From the NCBI GenBank assembly GCA_003054665.1, contig QAYY01000013.1, forward strand, positions 372,001-436,000: a stretch of 64,000 bases of DNA. Direction: 5' to 3'. The position numbers and the translations under genes were made by a program. The DNA comes from Opitutaceae bacterium EW11. Lineage in GTDB: Bacteria; Verrucomicrobiota; Verrucomicrobiia; Opitutales; Opitutaceae. Positions 31,245 through 39,851 of the stretch are shown one piece after another (position 1 is the first letter of the stretch; each line of letters opens with the position of its first letter). The notes beneath the pieces are model-generated. The model saw only the letters and a list, made by a program, of their open reading frames with translations, was not told the origin of the DNA and did no database searches.

Positions 31245-31907
31245 TCAGGCGACCTGCATGCCGTCGCGCAGCTTCAGGATGCGGTGGCCATAGGCGGCGT
31301 TCGCCTCCGAGTGCGTCACCTGGACGATCGTCGTGCCCTCGGAGTTCAGGCGCTTGAAGAGCTCCATGATCTCGCGACCCTGGTCGGTGTGGAGATTGCC
31401 GGTCGGCTCGTCGGCGAGCAGGAGCTTCGGTTTGGCGATGATCGCCCGGGCGACGGCGACGAGCTGCTGCTGGCCGCCCGACAATTGCCGCGGATAGAGA
31501 TCTTTTTTCCCGACGATGTTGAACCGATCCAACATATCGGCCACGGCGGCGGAACGCTCCGAGCGGGAGACGTTGCGGTAGGAGAGCGGGACTTCGAGGT
31601 TCTCGGCGACCGTCAGATCGTCGAGGAGGTGAAACTGCTGGAAGACGAATCCGACGTACTGCTTGTTCAGCACCGAACGTTTGTTCGGCGCGAGACGGTG
31701 AACGGCGTCGCCGAACAGCGTGTATTCACCGGTCCACTCGTTGTCGTACATCCCGAGGATGTTCAGGAGCGTCGATTTTCCCGCTCCGGACGGCCCCATG
31801 ATGGTGAGAAATTCGCCGGGCTGAATCTCCAGGTTGATCTGGCGGAGGATGTAGTAGGGCCCCGCCTTGAGTTGGATACACTTTTCCACCTGCTTGAGCG
31901 TAATCAT
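31245..31907 (-). CDS. Orphan LolD/MacB-type ABC transporter ATPase
   Basis: The 220-residue protein starts MITLKQVEKCIQLKAGPYYI. Walker A is IMGPSGAGKSTLLNIL, the Q-loop is VGFVFQQFHLLDDLT, the signature is QLSGGQQQLVAVARAI, Walker B is LLLADEPTGNLHTDQGREIM and the switch is IVQVTHSEANAAYG. It belongs to the LolD/MacB/FtsE branch, which pairs with FtsX-fold permeases. No permease gene is adjacent on its strand, while the large permease 1 kb away has no ATPase, so they may work together. The 60-bp longer frame to 31967 lacks conserved features. Confidence 0.92.
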   Translation of the reverse strand: MITLKQVEKCIQLKAGPYYILRQINLEIQPGEFLTIMGPSGAGKSTLLNILGMYDNEWTGEYTLFGDAVHRLAPNKRSVLNKQYVGFVFQQFHLLDDLTVAENLEVPLSYRNVSRSERSAAVADMLDRFNIVGKKDLYPRQLSGGQQQLVAVARAIIAKPKLLLADEPTGNLHTDQGREIMELFKRLNSEGTTIVQVTHSEANAAYGHRILKLRDGMQVA

Positions 31908-31980
31908 GGTATCGCCGGCGTAGTGCCGCTGCCTTGACGAGGTGCGCGCAGCAACCGGGAGTGTCAAGGGAAACGCTGGC

Positions 31981-32088: not shown

Positions 32089-34353
32089 CTAGTGAAGCGG
32101 CGGGACCACGGCGCGTTTCGAAGAGCGGTTTCCGACGCTGTCGTAGAGGTTCACCTCGACGGACGTCGCGCCGGTCAGCCGGTCCGCGGGTATCTCCGCG
32201 GCGAAACTTTCTGTCTGGCTATCGCGGATACCGTCCACGGGCTGCGTGACCGCCTCCCGGTGGCCGTTGTTGAAAACGAAATCCGCCCCCTCGAGGAGAC
32301 TGAGACCGTCGCGGCCGGAGACTTTGACCTTCACGGCGCCTGCTTCGCGCGTGACCTTGAATTCGGCGATCGTCGGCGGGGTGTTGTCGATCACGATGTC
32401 GGGCGTCTCGAAGATCACGCTCAGGCGATCCGCGGCGGGGCGGGGCGCCTGCTCGTCCGCGATCAGACGCGTCGCGTAGACGCCGTCCTCCAAATTGGAG
32501 GTCGCAAACTGCGCGTAACCGTCCGTCGAGTTGACCGCCAGGTCGGTCCAGTCGGTGCTGCCGGCGCGCCGGATGGAGAACGTGCACGCCACGCTGTCGC
32601 CGTCGGGATCGGTGACGTTCCAGGTCACGACCTGCATGCCGGGCTCCGGCACGACCTGGCTGGACATGAGGGACGGCTTCTTTCGCTCATCGCGCTCCTG
32701 CGTGCTGACGAGCTGCGAAAGCGTCGTCACGACGGGCGGGTTCGGCTCGGGCGGCGGGATGAGGGCGTAGTTCGGAGCGATCACGCGGAATTCGGAGAGC
32801 TGCGGCCGCCGATTCTGCGGGAGGAAATGCAGGACGGCGTCGTCGAGTTCGGCGCCCTGGCTCCTCGGCCCCGAGATTTCGAGGCGGACCTTCACGTTGC
32901 GCGCTTTCATGTCGGGAGCCATCCAGCCGTCGGCCCGGCGTTCGGTGGCGGTCCAGGGTGTCCAGCCCTCGATCTCGTCGCTCCCCAAGTTTCCGCGCAG
33001 CTCTATTTTCAGCTGGTCCGGCGAGATTTCGGCGAGGCGACCGATGCGCAAGGCGCCAAGCCGGCCCGGCGTTCCGAGATCCAGTCGGCGCGTCTCGGCC
33101 GAGCGGGAGCCGCTCCCGGCGAAATCGATGAGGGCCAGTCCGGGGGCGTTGTTCCGGAGCGCGAGAAAGCGGTCGGTTGCGCCGCCGCCCGTCGTCGGCG
33201 GGATCGGGACGAGCGCGTTTACCTGGGCGGAGTCGCTGCCGGCAAACGAGAGACTCTGCCGCGCGGGAATGTCGTAACCGAGAACGTCGCCCTGCTCGCC
33301 GCCGCCGATCACGAGCGTGTCCCCGTGTTTGGCCAAGGCGTAGAAGGCGAGATTCGCCCGGGCGACGACGGTCTCCGGAAAGCCGTCCTTCGGAAGGAAG
33401 ACCACCGCGCTGCGGCCGTTGAATCGCTCGGGCGGCAGGGGTGCGGTCGCCGGATTCGCCGGCGTTTCCGGCGCGCCCGACGGAGGCGGTGTAGCGGGCC
33501 GATTGATACGGTTTTCGCCCTGCGTGGCGGCGAAAACGAGCGCCGCGTAAAGATCGCCGTTGGGCTGGGGCAGCAGCGCCGCGACTTCGGCGTCGCGGTT
33601 TTCCTGGAGCAATTCCGGCGGCGCCCCGGCGGCGTCGAACGCGTAGATGTTGCCCTTGGGGGAGGAGCCGGCGACCAGGCGTTTGCCGAGCCAGGCGAGC
33701 CTGCGGACGTTGCGGTCGCGCACTTCGCCAAAAAGCGAGATGCCTTTTTCGGACAGCGCGGCGGTCTGGCGCACACGCTCTTTCACCAAGCCCGCCGAAG
33801 AGAATTTCGCCAGGTCCACGGCGTAGATCCGGGCTGGATTGCCCGTCGCAACGAAGGCGCGGTCGCCCTGGAGAACAATATCGAAAACCGAATCCACCGG
33901 CAGCGGCACGCGGGCGGCGACCTTGCCGTCGCGAACGAGCGCCAGCACGCCGTTGGGCGACGTACCGGCCAGGATCGATCCGTCGGGCAGGCGCTTGAGC
34001 GCGAGCACCTGCGGCTCGTCGACCTTGGCGACGTCCCGCACCGTGTAGCCCGTGCCGGCGGTATCGAGGGCGATCTCGATCACCCGGCCTTCAGGGCCCG
34101 TGCCGACGAGCCACTTCCCGGATCCGGCCGGTTCGATGCACCAGAGCAATTCCGGCAGCGCGGGACCGCCGAGATCCGTCAGCGTCGGCCCGGCCACCAA
34201 TCGACCGTCCGAGCGGGTCGCGAGGCCTCTCAGGCTCCGGCTGGGAACGTCGCGGTAGAAATCGAGCGGGAAGCTTTTCGACAGAGGCTCCGCCGCGGAC
34301 AGCGCAATCGCGCTGGAGATAATCCAAGGGGCGAGACGAAGACGTGAAAGCAT
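32089..34353 (-). CDS. Secreted beta-propeller-like protein
   Basis: The 754-residue protein begins with a signal peptide (MLSRLRLAPWIISSAIALSA). Residues of about 60-380 form propeller-type repeats, with LVGTGPEGRVIEI, ILAGTSPNGVLALVRDG, FVATGNPARIYAVDL, LVAGSSPKGNIYAFDAAG and LVIGGGEQGDVLGYD spaced 40-70 residues apart. A Pro-rich insert lies near residue 285. The C-terminal part has beta-sandwich-like regions (TWNVTDPDGDSVACTFSIRR and the Ca-binding-looking YDSVGNRSS). It follows the S55-type protein on the same strand, 197 bp away, and may act with it in the envelope. The longer upstream frame to 34911 is a shadow. Confidence 0.78.
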   Translation of the reverse strand: MLSRLRLAPWIISSAIALSAAEPLSKSFPLDFYRDVPSRSLRGLATRSDGRLVAGPTLTDLGGPALPELLWCIEPAGSGKWLVGTGPEGRVIEIALDTAGTGYTVRDVAKVDEPQVLALKRLPDGSILAGTSPNGVLALVRDGKVAARVPLPVDSVFDIVLQGDRAFVATGNPARIYAVDLAKFSSAGLVKERVRQTAALSEKGISLFGEVRDRNVRRLAWLGKRLVAGSSPKGNIYAFDAAGAPPELLQENRDAEVAALLPQPNGDLYAALVFAATQGENRINRPATPPPSGAPETPANPATAPLPPERFNGRSAVVFLPKDGFPETVVARANLAFYALAKHGDTLVIGGGEQGDVLGYDIPARQSLSFAGSDSAQVNALVPIPPTTGGGATDRFLALRNNAPGLALIDFAGSGSRSAETRRLDLGTPGRLGALRIGRLAEISPDQLKIELRGNLGSDEIEGWTPWTATERRADGWMAPDMKARNVKVRLEISGPRSQGAELDDAVLHFLPQNRRPQLSEFRVIAPNYALIPPPEPNPPVVTTLSQLVSTQERDERKKPSLMSSQVVPEPGMQVVTWNVTDPDGDSVACTFSIRRAGSTDWTDLAVNSTDGYAQFATSNLEDGVYATRLIADEQAPRPAADRLSVIFETPDIVIDNTPPTIAEFKVTREAGAVKVKVSGRDGLSLLEGADFVFNNGHREAVTQPVDGIRDSQTESFAAEIPADRLTGATSVEVNLYDSVGNRSSKRAVVPPLH

Positions 34354-34550: not shown

Positions 34551-36374
34551 TCAGTTCATCACCTGGAAACCGCGGCGGACCTTCGCGTCGACGACTTTGC
34601 CGGCGAGCACGTGCGTTTCCCAGAGGGGCACGAGGACCTCGCGCTTCTGGAAGCGGGATTCGTCGGAGGAGCGGGCGATGCGTTCGACGCTGCCCGGGTA
34701 GTCCAGTGTGGCCTGCGTCTGGTCGAGAAACGCGGAGGCTCGCTCCACCACGGCGACGTACAAGCCGTCGGCCGAGCGCTCCTGGCGCATCAGGTCGAGG
34801 TAGGCGGAAAAACTGCGTATTTGGGAAACGGAGACGATGTCCGGGCGGCCCGAGAGCTTGTCCAGCTCGTCGCCATTGGCGACAAGGAGTTCGAGCTTCT
34901 TGCCCGTCCATTCGGCGGGAACCTGGACCTGCACGGTCTGCTGTTCCGGCGCGCCCTGGAAGTCGCGCACGCTGAGCGTGGCGGTGAGCGTCTCACCGGG
35001 GCTGATACGGCTGCGCGAGAGCTGCACGTAATCGAGCGAGGCGACGGGATTCTTCGGCAGTGGTTCGACGGAGAAGGCGATGGAAGTCGGGAAAACGTCG
35101 GCGATCGGATTCGTCAGGCCCGCGGAGAGGCGGCGGATGAAGCCGTCGAGCCCGGCGCTGAAACCCTGCGGACCGGCGTACACGGCGTCGGTGCTGAGCG
35201 TCTGGCCGTCCGGATAGGAAACGGTGCTGGAGACGCGGAAGCCTTCGGCGAGGCCGTTGTCGTTCGAGCCGAGAACCGCCTGGGATAGGCCCATCGCCGC
35301 AATCGTCGGGGTGAGGCGAGGATGGCGCACCGCGGAAAAATGGAGCGTGCGATGCGGGGTTTTTACCTCGATCGGCAGCATCTGCGGGATCCGGCCGACC
35401 TCGCCGTAGATGGCGGAGAGGCGGTCCTGGCTGATCGTGCCGATCACGGCGCCGGTGTTGGAAATCTTGAAGGAGTTGAGGCTGGAAGGGAGGATCGCGA
35501 CGATCTCGGCCAGCGCCATCGGAAGATCGACATTGCCCAGGCCCATGAGCGGATGGCCAAAAGCGAGCACACGATCGCCGTCGACGTGGGAGACGGTTCC
35601 GGTGCCGGCGAGGGTGATATCGCCGGTCGCGAGCGCGACGGCTACGGCGGCGCCGGCCTGCAGCTGTTTGAGCGCGTCGTCCTTGGAAACGGGAGCGGCC
35701 GATTGGGTGGATCCACCCACTGCCGTGACATTCAGTCCCAGTGCGTGGAATTCATCGCCGAAAAGGGAGGCGACCGAAGGCGCGACGCCGCCGAGGGCGA
35801 ACATCGGCGTCAGCGGCGAAAACCCCGTCACGTCGTTGTCGCTCCGGGCTGAAGCGGGGCTGGCGTCGCCCATGCCGGGCTTGTTGCGCGACGCTTCGCG
35901 GTCGAGCGGGATAAAACCGGCGGGTGCCGTGGGGACATGGGGGCCTTTATCCAACTTGCTGACCTCCAAAAGGTCGGCGATGGGAGTGAAGCCCGCATAC
36001 CGGACGGTCTCAAATTTCTGGATTTGGTAGCTCAGCGCGCCGGCGAGCTTGCCGTCGATGTAAAGCGGGCTGCCGCTCATGCCGGCGACCGCGCCCATGT
36101 TCTGCACTCGAGGATCGGTGAGCTGGCAGAGGATCAACGACTTGCCAGGACCGAGGGCGTTGCGGATGACCCCGGTGACTTCCACCTTGAACGGCTCGGC
36201 TTTGCTGCCCTGGAAGACGGTCCAGACGATCCCCGTTTGCCCCGGATGCAGCTCGTCGATCGTGATGAGCGGAGCATCGACCGGCTGAGTCTCGAGAGAA
36301 GGGGCGGCCATCGCGACCGCCACGCCTAAGGTTAGGACCGAAACAAGGCAGGAAACACTACGGACGAGACTCAT
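34551..36374 (-). CDS. SpoIVB-like S55 peptidase-domain protein, permuted motif order
   Basis: The 607-residue protein has a signal peptide (MSLVRSVSCLVSVLTLGVAV, then AMAA). The first domain contains TDPRV (Asp87) and VAGMSGSPLYIDGKLAGALS (Ser100), matching the SpoIVB Asp-Ser half of the S55 serine peptidase. About 170 residues later comes VSHVDGDRVLAFGHPLMGLG with His274, which matches the SpoIVB His half and in that enzyme precedes the Ser half. C-terminal beta-sandwich-like regions follow. A TTG start 21 bp upstream is possible. In this non-sporulating context it is probably an envelope protease or a domain-reuse protein; activity is not proven. Confidence 0.82.
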   Translation of the reverse strand: MSLVRSVSCLVSVLTLGVAVAMAAPSLETQPVDAPLITIDELHPGQTGIVWTVFQGSKAEPFKVEVTGVIRNALGPGKSLILCQLTDPRVQNMGAVAGMSGSPLYIDGKLAGALSYQIQKFETVRYAGFTPIADLLEVSKLDKGPHVPTAPAGFIPLDREASRNKPGMGDASPASARSDNDVTGFSPLTPMFALGGVAPSVASLFGDEFHALGLNVTAVGGSTQSAAPVSKDDALKQLQAGAAVAVALATGDITLAGTGTVSHVDGDRVLAFGHPLMGLGNVDLPMALAEIVAILPSSLNSFKISNTGAVIGTISQDRLSAIYGEVGRIPQMLPIEVKTPHRTLHFSAVRHPRLTPTIAAMGLSQAVLGSNDNGLAEGFRVSSTVSYPDGQTLSTDAVYAGPQGFSAGLDGFIRRLSAGLTNPIADVFPTSIAFSVEPLPKNPVASLDYVQLSRSRISPGETLTATLSVRDFQGAPEQQTVQVQVPAEWTGKKLELLVANGDELDKLSGRPDIVSVSQIRSFSAYLDLMRQERSADGLYVAVVERASAFLDQTQATLDYPGSVERIARSSDESRFQKREVLVPLWETHVLAGKVVDAKVRRGFQVMN

Positions 36375-36470
36375 GGACAGGTGACGCGTACTCAATGCAC
36401 GGTTTTATCGACGCGCACGAGTCGAAGTTCAGCATTTACCTATCCAACTAACGGAAAAATCCCCGAAATC

Positions 36471-37748
36471 TTACAGCCGCTTGACGGCCCCGGCCATCAC
36501 CTCGCAGGCACGGTCGATCGCCTCGCCCTGGTGGGCGGTGCTGATGAAGCAGGTTTCGTAGGCGCTCGGGGGGAGGTAAACCCCATGGTCGAGGCAGTCG
36601 CGGAAGAAGCGGGCGAAGAGCGGTGCGCTGGCCTTCAGGGCCGATGCGTAGTCCGTCACCGGATCGGGCGTGAAGAAGATGGAGAACATCGACCCGACTT
36701 GGGGGACCTGCGCGGCGATGCCCTTGGCGCGGGCGGCCGCCGCCAGCGTGTCGCGGACCTGGCGCCCCAGTGTATCCAGGCGTGAATACGGATTGAGCTC
36801 GTCGAGCAGTTTCAGCCCGGCGATGCCCGCCGCCATCGCGAGCGGGTTTCCGCTCAGCGTTCCGGCCTGGTAAACCGGGCCGACCGGCGCAAGTTTGTCC
36901 ATGATGTCGGCCCGTCCGCCGAACGCGCCGACGGGAAGACCGCCGCCGATGATTTTCCCGAGCGTGGTGAGGTCGGGCACGATCTTTTCGATCTCCTGCA
37001 CGCCGCCCTTCGCCAACCGGAAGCCCGTCATCACCTCGTCGAAAATCAGCACGGCGCCTTCGCGCGTGCACAGTTCGCGGACGAACTTCAGGTAGCCGGG
37101 GGCGGGGAGGATGAGACCGACGTTGGCCGGGTACGGCTCGAGGATGACGCAGGCGATCTTTCCTGGATTTGCGGCGAACGCGGCTTCGAGCGCGTCGCGG
37201 TCGTTGAAACCGACGACGACGGTCTCCTGGGCAAACGACGCCGGCACGCCGGCGCTGTCGGGATTCCCGTGGGTGAGGGCGCCCGAACCTGCCTTGATCA
37301 GCAGCGAATCCGAGTGGCCGTGATAGCAGCCGGAGAACTTCACGATCTTGTCGCGACCGGTGAAGCCACGCGCCAGCCGGATGGCCGACATGGTCGCTTC
37401 CGTGCCGCTGTTGCACATGCGGACCTTCTGGATCGAGGGAACGAAGCGCGTGATCAGCTCGGCCATCTCGACCTCGTACGGGTTGGGCGTGCCGAAGCTG
37501 GTGCCGTTCTCGAGCGCTTTCGCAATCGCGGTTTTGATCACCGGATGGTTGTGGCCGTGGATTGCGGGCCCCCACGTGCAGACGAAGTCGATCAACTCGC
37601 GGTCATCCGCCGTCGTGAGCGTCGCCCCGTGCGCCGCCTTGACGAAAAACGGCGCGCCCCCAACGGAGCGGAAGGCTCTGACGGGCGAGTTGACGCCGCC
37701 GGGGATGACTTTGAGAGCGCGGGCAAAGAGATCGTCGGAAAGGGCCAT
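36471..37748 (-). CDS. hemL: Glutamate-1-semialdehyde 2,1-aminomutase
   Basis: HemL makes 5-aminolevulinate from glutamate-1-semialdehyde in the C5 heme pathway. The 425-residue PLP enzyme starts [20 protein letters not shown]. Landmarks are [38 protein letters not shown], the cofactor Asp region [15 protein letters not shown] and the Schiff-base Lys in [19 protein letters not shown]. The S55 gene lies downstream on the same strand. It has a 385-bp gene-free leader region upstream. Confidence 0.97.
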
Positions 37749-38609: not shown

Positions 38610-39851
38610 TCAATCCTGGAACCTCACGGCGAGGTTGGGGGCGGGGAACGCGGGCGCCGCCGCGGTTCCCGCAGCGCCTTCCTTCGCCATGGGGACTCGG
38701 GCCTTGTCCTCGAAGACGGCGGCGAGGGTCTCGAAGCGGCCGATTGAAACGAAGCCGCTGAGAAGGTACGGCAGGCTTTCGGCATCGAGCGGCGAGTTCC
38801 GATTCGCGACGTGAAAATGCAGGTGCGGAGCGGTGGTTTGGCCGGTAAAGCCAACGCGGGCGATCGCTTGCCCTCGGCGAACGCGTTGGCCCGGTTTCAC
38901 CTTCAGACCGGGCTGCAGGTGCTCGTAAAACGCGGTGCGGCCGTTTCCCAGGTCGAGAGCGATGTAGTTGCCCGTCGCGTCGGCAATCGGCACCGACGGC
39001 GCGTCGGCGATCGTCCGGGGCTCGGGGAAGTTGTCCCGCGTAGCCGCTACCGTCGCATCGGCCACCGCCAGCACGTCGGCGCCGTATCCGAAATAGTCGG
39101 CGGTCTTGGCACCGTCGCCCTGTGCGACGCCTCCGTTTTCGCCGAGCTTGAACCAATCGATCGCAAATCGTCCGGGCACCCGGGCGTGGCCAGCCACGGC
39201 GTACACGACCCGGCGGTGGCCGGCATCCATGGCGGGATCGTAAACCGCCACCCAGGGCCCGCCGCGCAAGGGCGGTCCGAGCTCGAGCGGCGGCGATGTA
39301 TCGAGCGGAATGGATACAGAAACGGAGGAGCCTGGTGCCTCCGTCTCGTCGCGACCTTCGCGAAAGCCGAAGTCATGCTGCAGGGCGCGAGGGATGGGTT
39401 TTTCGCCGAGGGGTACTTCCAGGTAGAGGACGGCGCGTGCGCCGGTCGGAAGGGCACCACTGTCGCCCTGGCTGCGATCCGTCGCGATGAGGCGCAGTCG
39501 CTGGCCGAGTGTCTCCCCCGTGAAGGTCGCCAGGGGCTGACGGGAGCCCGGAGCTTCGATCCGAAGAGATGCGATCCTGAGCGGCCGTCTGGAAAAGTTG
39601 GTGAGGTGCAGTTCGTAGACCGCTTGGGTGCCGTCCGTGGAACGCACAACGGCTGGAGGCTGAAGCGAAAGCACCTCGCACGATTGCCTCGGCGGCGGGA
39701 GGTCGACTTCCGAACTCGCCCGCAACGGGCAGAACAGCGTCGCGAGAACCAGCATCGCCGCTCCGAGCGCGGTGGCTGCCGCAGAGCGAGTCGCCCGCGT
39801 GTTCGCTGCGTGAGAGAGATCGGGTTTCAGGAAGGAGTATCCGCGGCGCAT
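38610..39851 (-). CDS. M23-type (LytM/lysostaphin-fold) envelope protein, likely degenerate
   Basis: The 413-residue protein has an N-terminal hydrophobic segment (AAATALGAAMLVLATLF). A large N-terminal beta-rich domain (about 60-200) precedes a LytM-type domain at about 265-350. The second metal motif is intact (TTAPHLHFHVAN), and the core GQRVRRGQAIARVGFTGQ is typical. In the first motif, where HxxxD is expected, the sequence is DYFGYGADVLAV, so the His ligand is missing. Such proteins often bind or regulate rather than cut peptidoglycan. It is the first gene of a minus-strand stretch without close neighbours. Confidence 0.82.
   Translation of the reverse strand: MRRGYSFLKPDLSHAANTRATRSAAATALGAAMLVLATLFCPLRASSEVDLPPPRQSCEVLSLQPPAVVRSTDGTQAVYELHLTNFSRRPLRIASLRIEAPGSRQPLATFTGETLGQRLRLIATDRSQGDSGALPTGARAVLYLEVPLGEKPIPRALQHDFGFREGRDETEAPGSSVSVSIPLDTSPPLELGPPLRGGPWVAVYDPAMDAGHRRVVYAVAGHARVPGRFAIDWFKLGENGGVAQGDGAKTADYFGYGADVLAVADATVAATRDNFPEPRTIADAPSVPIADATGNYIALDLGNGRTAFYEHLQPGLKVKPGQRVRRGQAIARVGFTGQTTAPHLHFHVANRNSPLDAESLPYLLSGFVSIGRFETLAAVFEDKARVPMAKEGAAGTAAAPAFPAPNLAVRFQD

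Follow-up and report, generated by a model that had tools for sequence, protein, structure and literature searches.

Serine proteases of the chymotrypsin-like fold (clan PA) are built of two barrels, across which the catalytic serine and histidine face each other. Proteases of other folds can work together with a β-propeller, as in the propeller-gated tricorn and prolyl oligopeptidase, where the β-propeller belongs to the same chain as the serine protease. The described protein most similar to the one considered here is SpoIVB from Bacillus subtilis (family S55, PDB 9lnf). In the portion of the 2025 crystallographic report drawn on here (PMC12502668), the two barrels of SpoIVB meet at the active site, with His236 near residue 378, and the accepted Asp363 lies about 24 Å from His236; the authors question Asp363 and propose Thr393, which leaves the third catalytic residue of SpoIVB unsettled. 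The crystallised protein carries, according to the same portion, an Ala mutation and has one segment swapped; its conformation is perhaps not the active one. The mutation described there is S378A; the deposited 9lnf chain reads GMAGAP, with Ala at 378 and apparently at 380 too.

Family S55 has been widely detected in acidobacteria, as stated in the excerpt used of PMC8841776, and these S55-annotated proteins, compared by annotation only, may belong to the same family as the protein analysed below. In the open-access literature, no description was found of a permuted SpoIVB or S55 protein, nor of an SpoIVB/S55 gene paired with a β-propeller gene. As far as the excerpts of two papers go, “permuted” is applied to PDZ domains and not to SpoIVB in PMC6411480, and SpoIVB is present in a reference only in PMC1949818. 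The S55 annotation itself was already known.

The protein is encoded in a 64,000-nucleotide stretch of DNA from Opitutaceae bacterium EW11, hereafter called the window. Its open reading frame is a real gene, as judged from GC by codon position (0.66/0.47/0.82) and from conservation in 19-row and 39-row alignments. Residues are counted from the ATG at 36374, as in the first-pass annotation of this DNA; an alternative TTG start at 36395 would give 614 aa, and the Pfam, NCBIfam and PDB searches, as well as the 19-row alignment, used this longer numbering (+7). The first-pass annotation had placed Asp87, Ser100, and His274 correctly, and its statement that TDP and GMSGSP come first, with AFGHPL some 170 residues later, holds: the motifs start at residues 86 (TDP), 98 (GMSGSP), 257 (GTGTVSHVDGDR), and 271 (AFGHPL) of the 607-aa protein, and Ser100 is followed by His274 after 174 residues. 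GMSGSP occurs a single time across all six frames of the window. The features of the locus are as follows:

34551..36374, (-) strand: permuted S55-like protease gene, 607 aa, with ATG at 36374 and stop at 34551-34553
36306..36374, (-) strand: residues 1-23, a probable signal peptide whose cut site was placed by eye; the sole above-threshold hydrophobic window of the protein
36033..36230, (-) strand: Ser half, residues 49-114, matching the SpoIVB C-terminal barrel (hhalign 97.3%)
36111..36119, (-) strand: TDP motif containing Asp87, which is aligned to SpoIVB Asp363 and probably non-catalytic; in 37/39 members
36066..36083, (-) strand: GMSGSP with the putative nucleophile Ser100, in 39/39 members
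35670..35939, (-) strand: stretch joining the halves (linker or insert), residues 146-235, variable for the most part, with no family match
35619..35621, (-) strand: Asp252, second candidate acid, near SpoIVB Asp213, in 39/39 members
35397..35615, (-) strand: His half, residues 254-326, matching the SpoIVB N-terminal barrel
35547..35564, (-) strand: AFGHPL with His274, in 39/39 members
35424..35426, (-) strand: Asp317 (in SQDR), favoured candidate acid, in 39/39 members
34554..35339, (-) strand: C-terminal region, residues 346-607, extra relative to SpoIVB, with no family match above cut-off
32089..34353, (-) strand: β-propeller-like partner gene, 754 aa, start set by eye and alignment; present at 22/22 loci by clustering

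Profile comparison gives solid evidence of homology to SpoIVB in the Ser half and moderate evidence in the His half. The Pfam Peptidase_S55 model aligns its positions 104-194 of 210 with residues 28-118 of the window protein (35-125 in the 614-aa numbering; E 7e-10), and the score of 39.7 bits exceeds the curated cut-off of 25 with the second half of the model only. A phmmer search of the PDB returned 9lnf as the best match and the sole one at E ≤ 0.01 (E 1.7e-4, in the C-terminal part), and a 19-row family profile recovered the same C-terminal part with E 1.2e-7. In the 9lnf alignment, the two TDP motifs coincide and GMSGSP is matched with the nucleophile motif, Asp87 being the equivalent of SpoIVB Asp363. 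The SpoIVB equivalog model TIGR02860 gives 32.1 bits, below the NCBIfam cut-off of 305.25, and a PDZ domain is absent among the five Pfam families listed up to E 10 for the window protein.

Both SpoIVB halves were recovered in a single hhalign comparison, in reversed order along the family profile. This profile has 39 rows, and the SpoIVB profile only four, namely 9lnf and three genes carried on plasmids of Clostridia and Tissierellia, of which two have a spoIVB annotation and one comes from an unannotated record. Residues 49-114 were aligned to the C-terminal barrel of SpoIVB at 97.3%. The N-terminal (His) barrel was matched by residues 254-326, at 30.6% with the entire domain as target and at 63.1% (E 7e-5) once the segment following residue 150 was set against the His barrel by itself. 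The earlier suggestion that the S55 halves are exchanged and that the flanking sequence agrees on either side is therefore borne out, and in terms of profile matches the two halves do stand in swapped order in the window protein.

The His half deserves separate consideration. It might be supposed that homology to S55 is confined to the Ser half and that the histidine resides in an unrelated domain; an S55 barrel would then have served as the scaffold of a protein with a binding or structural role, not of a protease. Indeed, Pfam and PDB searches with the whole protein or the family detect the Ser half alone, and the His half weakly matches DUF7139: in single scans of the His halves of 19 members, this family was found in 9/19 (best E 0.004), and Pfam S55 in 2/19 (best E 0.047). 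Yet the alignment of the His half with SpoIVB barrel 1 beats every shuffled control. Residues 236-345 score 30.6 against the His barrel, with a maximum of 22.2 in 200 column shuffles, and the 19-row version scores 30.1, with a maximum of 18.9 in 60. Besides, Ser100 and His274 are both invariant (39/39), and a binding protein would not need the two together, so a Ser-half-only origin appears unlikely. The DUF7139 match itself (window 35340-35663, (-) strand) possibly reflects a distant relative of the His barrel, or chance. Two AlphaFold2 models, each made from the window protein together with L023, reached pLDDT 42.5 (380 aa) and 37.0 (119 aa), a quality too low to read the fold.

Two further origins of the arrangement were rejected. 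A chance motif is ruled out by conservation in both alignments and by the shuffle-beating score of the His half. A tandem S55 with one decayed copy finds no space for a preceding barrel, since the Ser-half match begins at residue 28 according to Pfam and at residue 49 according to hhalign. A second barrel-2 match after the His half was not found (hhalign best 0.1-0.2%), and a second G.SG[SAC]P motif follows the Ser motif in 0/39 members. A GH-like motif precedes the Ser motif in 1/39 (L047), where it sits roughly 20 residues inside the matched piece, at the place expected of a signal peptide.

In a profile search, the permuted protein was detected in 42 of 387 genomes of the phylum, belonging to 27 of 197 genera; in 37 of these genomes the open frame measures 576-660 aa. 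L023, an Opitutus sp. MAG, carries a relative with 53% identity to the window protein. The Pfam S55 model matched 32 of 288 phylum genomes, each time starting at model position 92 or later of 210; among the 32 is a below-cut-off match in a 365-aa frame (G162). No native-order S55 match was seen among these 288 genomes with the same model. The Ser motif precedes the His motif in all 39 distinct members, the window's included, and none of them has the His-Asp-Ser order of S55. Because this order is uniform and all 32 S55 matches fall in the Ser half of the model, the swapped order is, at the level of motifs and profiles, the arrangement of the entire family. No relatives were found in plasmids (tblastn, E 0.01), and neither relatives nor SpoIVB were found in viral contigs.

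Residue conservation was counted over 39 distinct proteins, including that of the window, out of 43 known members (42 genomes and L023; G160, G207, G333, and G384 are not represented). Five residues are invariant: Ser100, His274, Asp252, Asp317, and Lys303. The invariance of Ser100 and His274 means that the protein does not look like a relic, in agreement with the first-pass annotation. The same annotation had named Asp87 as the third catalytic residue, which fits less well. A permuted S55 protease with the triad Asp87, Ser100, and His274 would be in line with the exact alignment of TDP with SpoIVB Asp363 and with its retention in 37/39 members. In the remaining two (L019 from G059 and L078 from G344), however, Asp87 is replaced by Gly, and both proteins keep Ser100 and His274; G059 and G344 are the sole genomes of the 42 outside the window's class. 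Taken together with the distance of the SpoIVB equivalent from His236, although that was measured in a crystal that is perhaps not the active form (PMC12502668, in the portion cited above), this indicates that Asp87 is probably not catalytic, and such a triad is improbable.

The alternative proposed for SpoIVB fares no better: Thr393 has its counterpart, found by counting from the nucleophile in the alignment, in Ser115, which is present in 29/39 members. Judging by conservation, the data favour neither the Asp363 nor the Thr393 counterpart as a requirement in the permuted family.

The invariant acids of the His half offer other candidates. Asp317 lies 43 residues after His274, and the spacing between His57 and Asp102 of chymotrypsin is close to this. 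In a hand alignment anchored on the block ending in IYG/IFG, Asp317 pairs with SpoIVB Asn290 (residue number counted manually), a position occupied by Asn, Ser, Asn, and Asn in the four SpoIVB rows. In hhalign, instead, a gap follows Asp317, which then stands opposite a non-conserved Glu of SpoIVB, so the pairing with Asn290 is uncertain. Asp252 lies 22 residues before His274, and a nearby Asp is kept in all four SpoIVB rows. With somewhat better than even odds, Asp317 would be the catalytic acid; Asp252 is a distinctly weaker candidate, and Asp87 is weaker still, with little chance of filling this role.

On these grounds, the protein is best regarded, with a probability of about 0.6, as a secreted serine endopeptidase-like homolog of SpoIVB/S55 in which the barrels are swapped and which has a dedicated propeller-like partner; we infer the fold, the triad, the proteolysis, the secretion, and the role of the partner. 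The chain would run from the Ser barrel through a linker of about 90 residues to the His barrel and then to the C-terminal region. The barrels would pack as in SpoIVB, bringing Ser100 to His274, and the acid would come from the His half, Asp317 preferably and Asp252 as the second choice, in place of Asp87. The propeller-like protein encoded downstream may recognise or present the substrate, or be the substrate itself.

The mostly variable linker between the halves, and the fact that the SpoIVB crystal itself has a swapped segment (PMC12502668, same portion), would also suit an enzyme that needs dimerisation or the propeller for its activity, in which Ser and His barrels from different chains complement each other and the change of order reflects inter-chain pairing. 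Packing within a single chain nevertheless suffices, and we attach only a small probability to such an assembly.

The secreted, swapped-barrel reading includes the partner, whose gene lies downstream of the protease-like gene on the same strand, with 197 bp between the two. When open reading frames were clustered for the window, L023, and 20 fetched regions, a partner homolog adjoined the protease-like gene at all 22 loci. Direct comparison with the window partner at E 1e-8 found it at 18 of the 21 other loci, and the partners of L076, L077, and L082 are linked to the window copy via other members of the cluster, identity to this copy going down to 18-19%. A partner profile was then made from 20 of the 22 partners (without L067 and L074), that is, from genes found beside the protease-like gene, and was applied with an E 1e-20 threshold of our own setting to a phylum sample of the same size (387 genomes), only the top candidates per genome being scored. 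It returned 42 genomes, a set identical to that of the protease-like gene. At the thresholds used, both genes are present in 42 genomes and neither in 345, the 42 paired genomes sharing ancestry and not being independent events. Within the window's own family, the 14 genomes that lack one gene lack the other as well. Thus, the protease-like gene is strictly paired with the β-propeller-like gene.

Where both genes lie on one contig (41 genomes), they are always co-directional, with the partner downstream (41/41), and the gap between the profile matches is below 250 nt in 33/41. In the remaining genome (G116), the genes are split between contigs C40 and C28 and lie within 300 bases from the start of each, positions that fit a break in the assembly. 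The two genes are 1.2-2.7 kb apart in G008, G042, G072, G149, and G262, all five from a single family; at two loci of these genomes (L070 3656-4723 and L082 6850-7599), the intervening space encodes a protein with two CxxCH motifs that resembles a di-haem cytochrome c peroxidase by eye.

The partner is called β-propeller-like on the basis of a Pfam scan of three partners: propeller repeats are above cut-off in those of L070 and L078, no single repeat passing alone, and the window partner has no Pfam match over cut-off.

As for the location of the two proteins, an N-terminal hydrophobic window above the threshold that we chose is present in 13/19 protease-like proteins, the window's among them, and in 15/20 partners. 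The window partner is below this threshold, although its first residues resemble a signal peptide. Internal hydrophobic windows above the threshold occur in 6/19 protease-like proteins, at differing places, and in 0/20 partners. Both proteins are by inference likely to be secreted or periplasmic, and together with the pairing this suggests a two-part secreted protease system.

Comparison with SpoIVB brings together what is shared and what is not. Both barrels are matched by profile, and GMSGSP, the GH base motif, and TDP are common to the two. The order of the barrels is, by contrast, reversed in the permuted family. In SpoIVB a PDZ domain precedes the protease domain, whereas the window protein lacks a PDZ match and has about 260 extra residues at its C-terminus. 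Asp317 stands, by the hand alignment, at a position that is Asn or Ser in all four rows of SpoIVB, and the permuted family has a propeller-like partner gene. Tricorn and prolyl oligopeptidase are similar in that a β-propeller works with a serine protease; they differ both in the protease folds and in having the propeller in-chain, not as a separate gene product as here.

A bolder reading could be built on these differences: the permuted two-barrel protease would have kept a canonical-type Asp that SpoIVB has lost (to Asn), and would form with its partner an obligate two-protein secreted system, the separate propeller replacing PDZ as the substrate handler. We regard this fuller scheme as doubtful.

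If the swapped-barrel reading is correct, the family is relevant in three respects. A permuted sister family in which the Asp363 counterpart is Gly in 2/39 members and two other acids are invariant would provide an independent route to the catalytic acid of SpoIVB. Exchanged barrels in a two-barrel serine protease found in nature would be an unusual test of the freedom with which the two can be reconnected. Finally, an uncharacterised, presumably proteolytic secreted system in part of one phylum is suggested by how strictly the gene is paired with a propeller-like one.

Several neighbouring genes were also recorded. Beyond the pair, the window encodes an ABC ATPase (31245-31967, (-) strand), and an ATPase with an FtsX-like permease comes directly after the pair at L077 9178-11348 and L078 9280-11501, in distant members of the phylum. 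A conserved ABC transporter as a part of the system was rejected, given that it is the best match at only 2 of the 21 other loci (L077 and L078). Upstream of the protease-like gene, the window encodes a protein matching Peptidase_M23 (38613-39851, (-) strand) and, on the same strand as the protease-like gene, a class-III aminotransferase (36471-37748, (-) strand) that resembles hemL by eye; a homolog of the latter is present at 10 of the 21 other loci.
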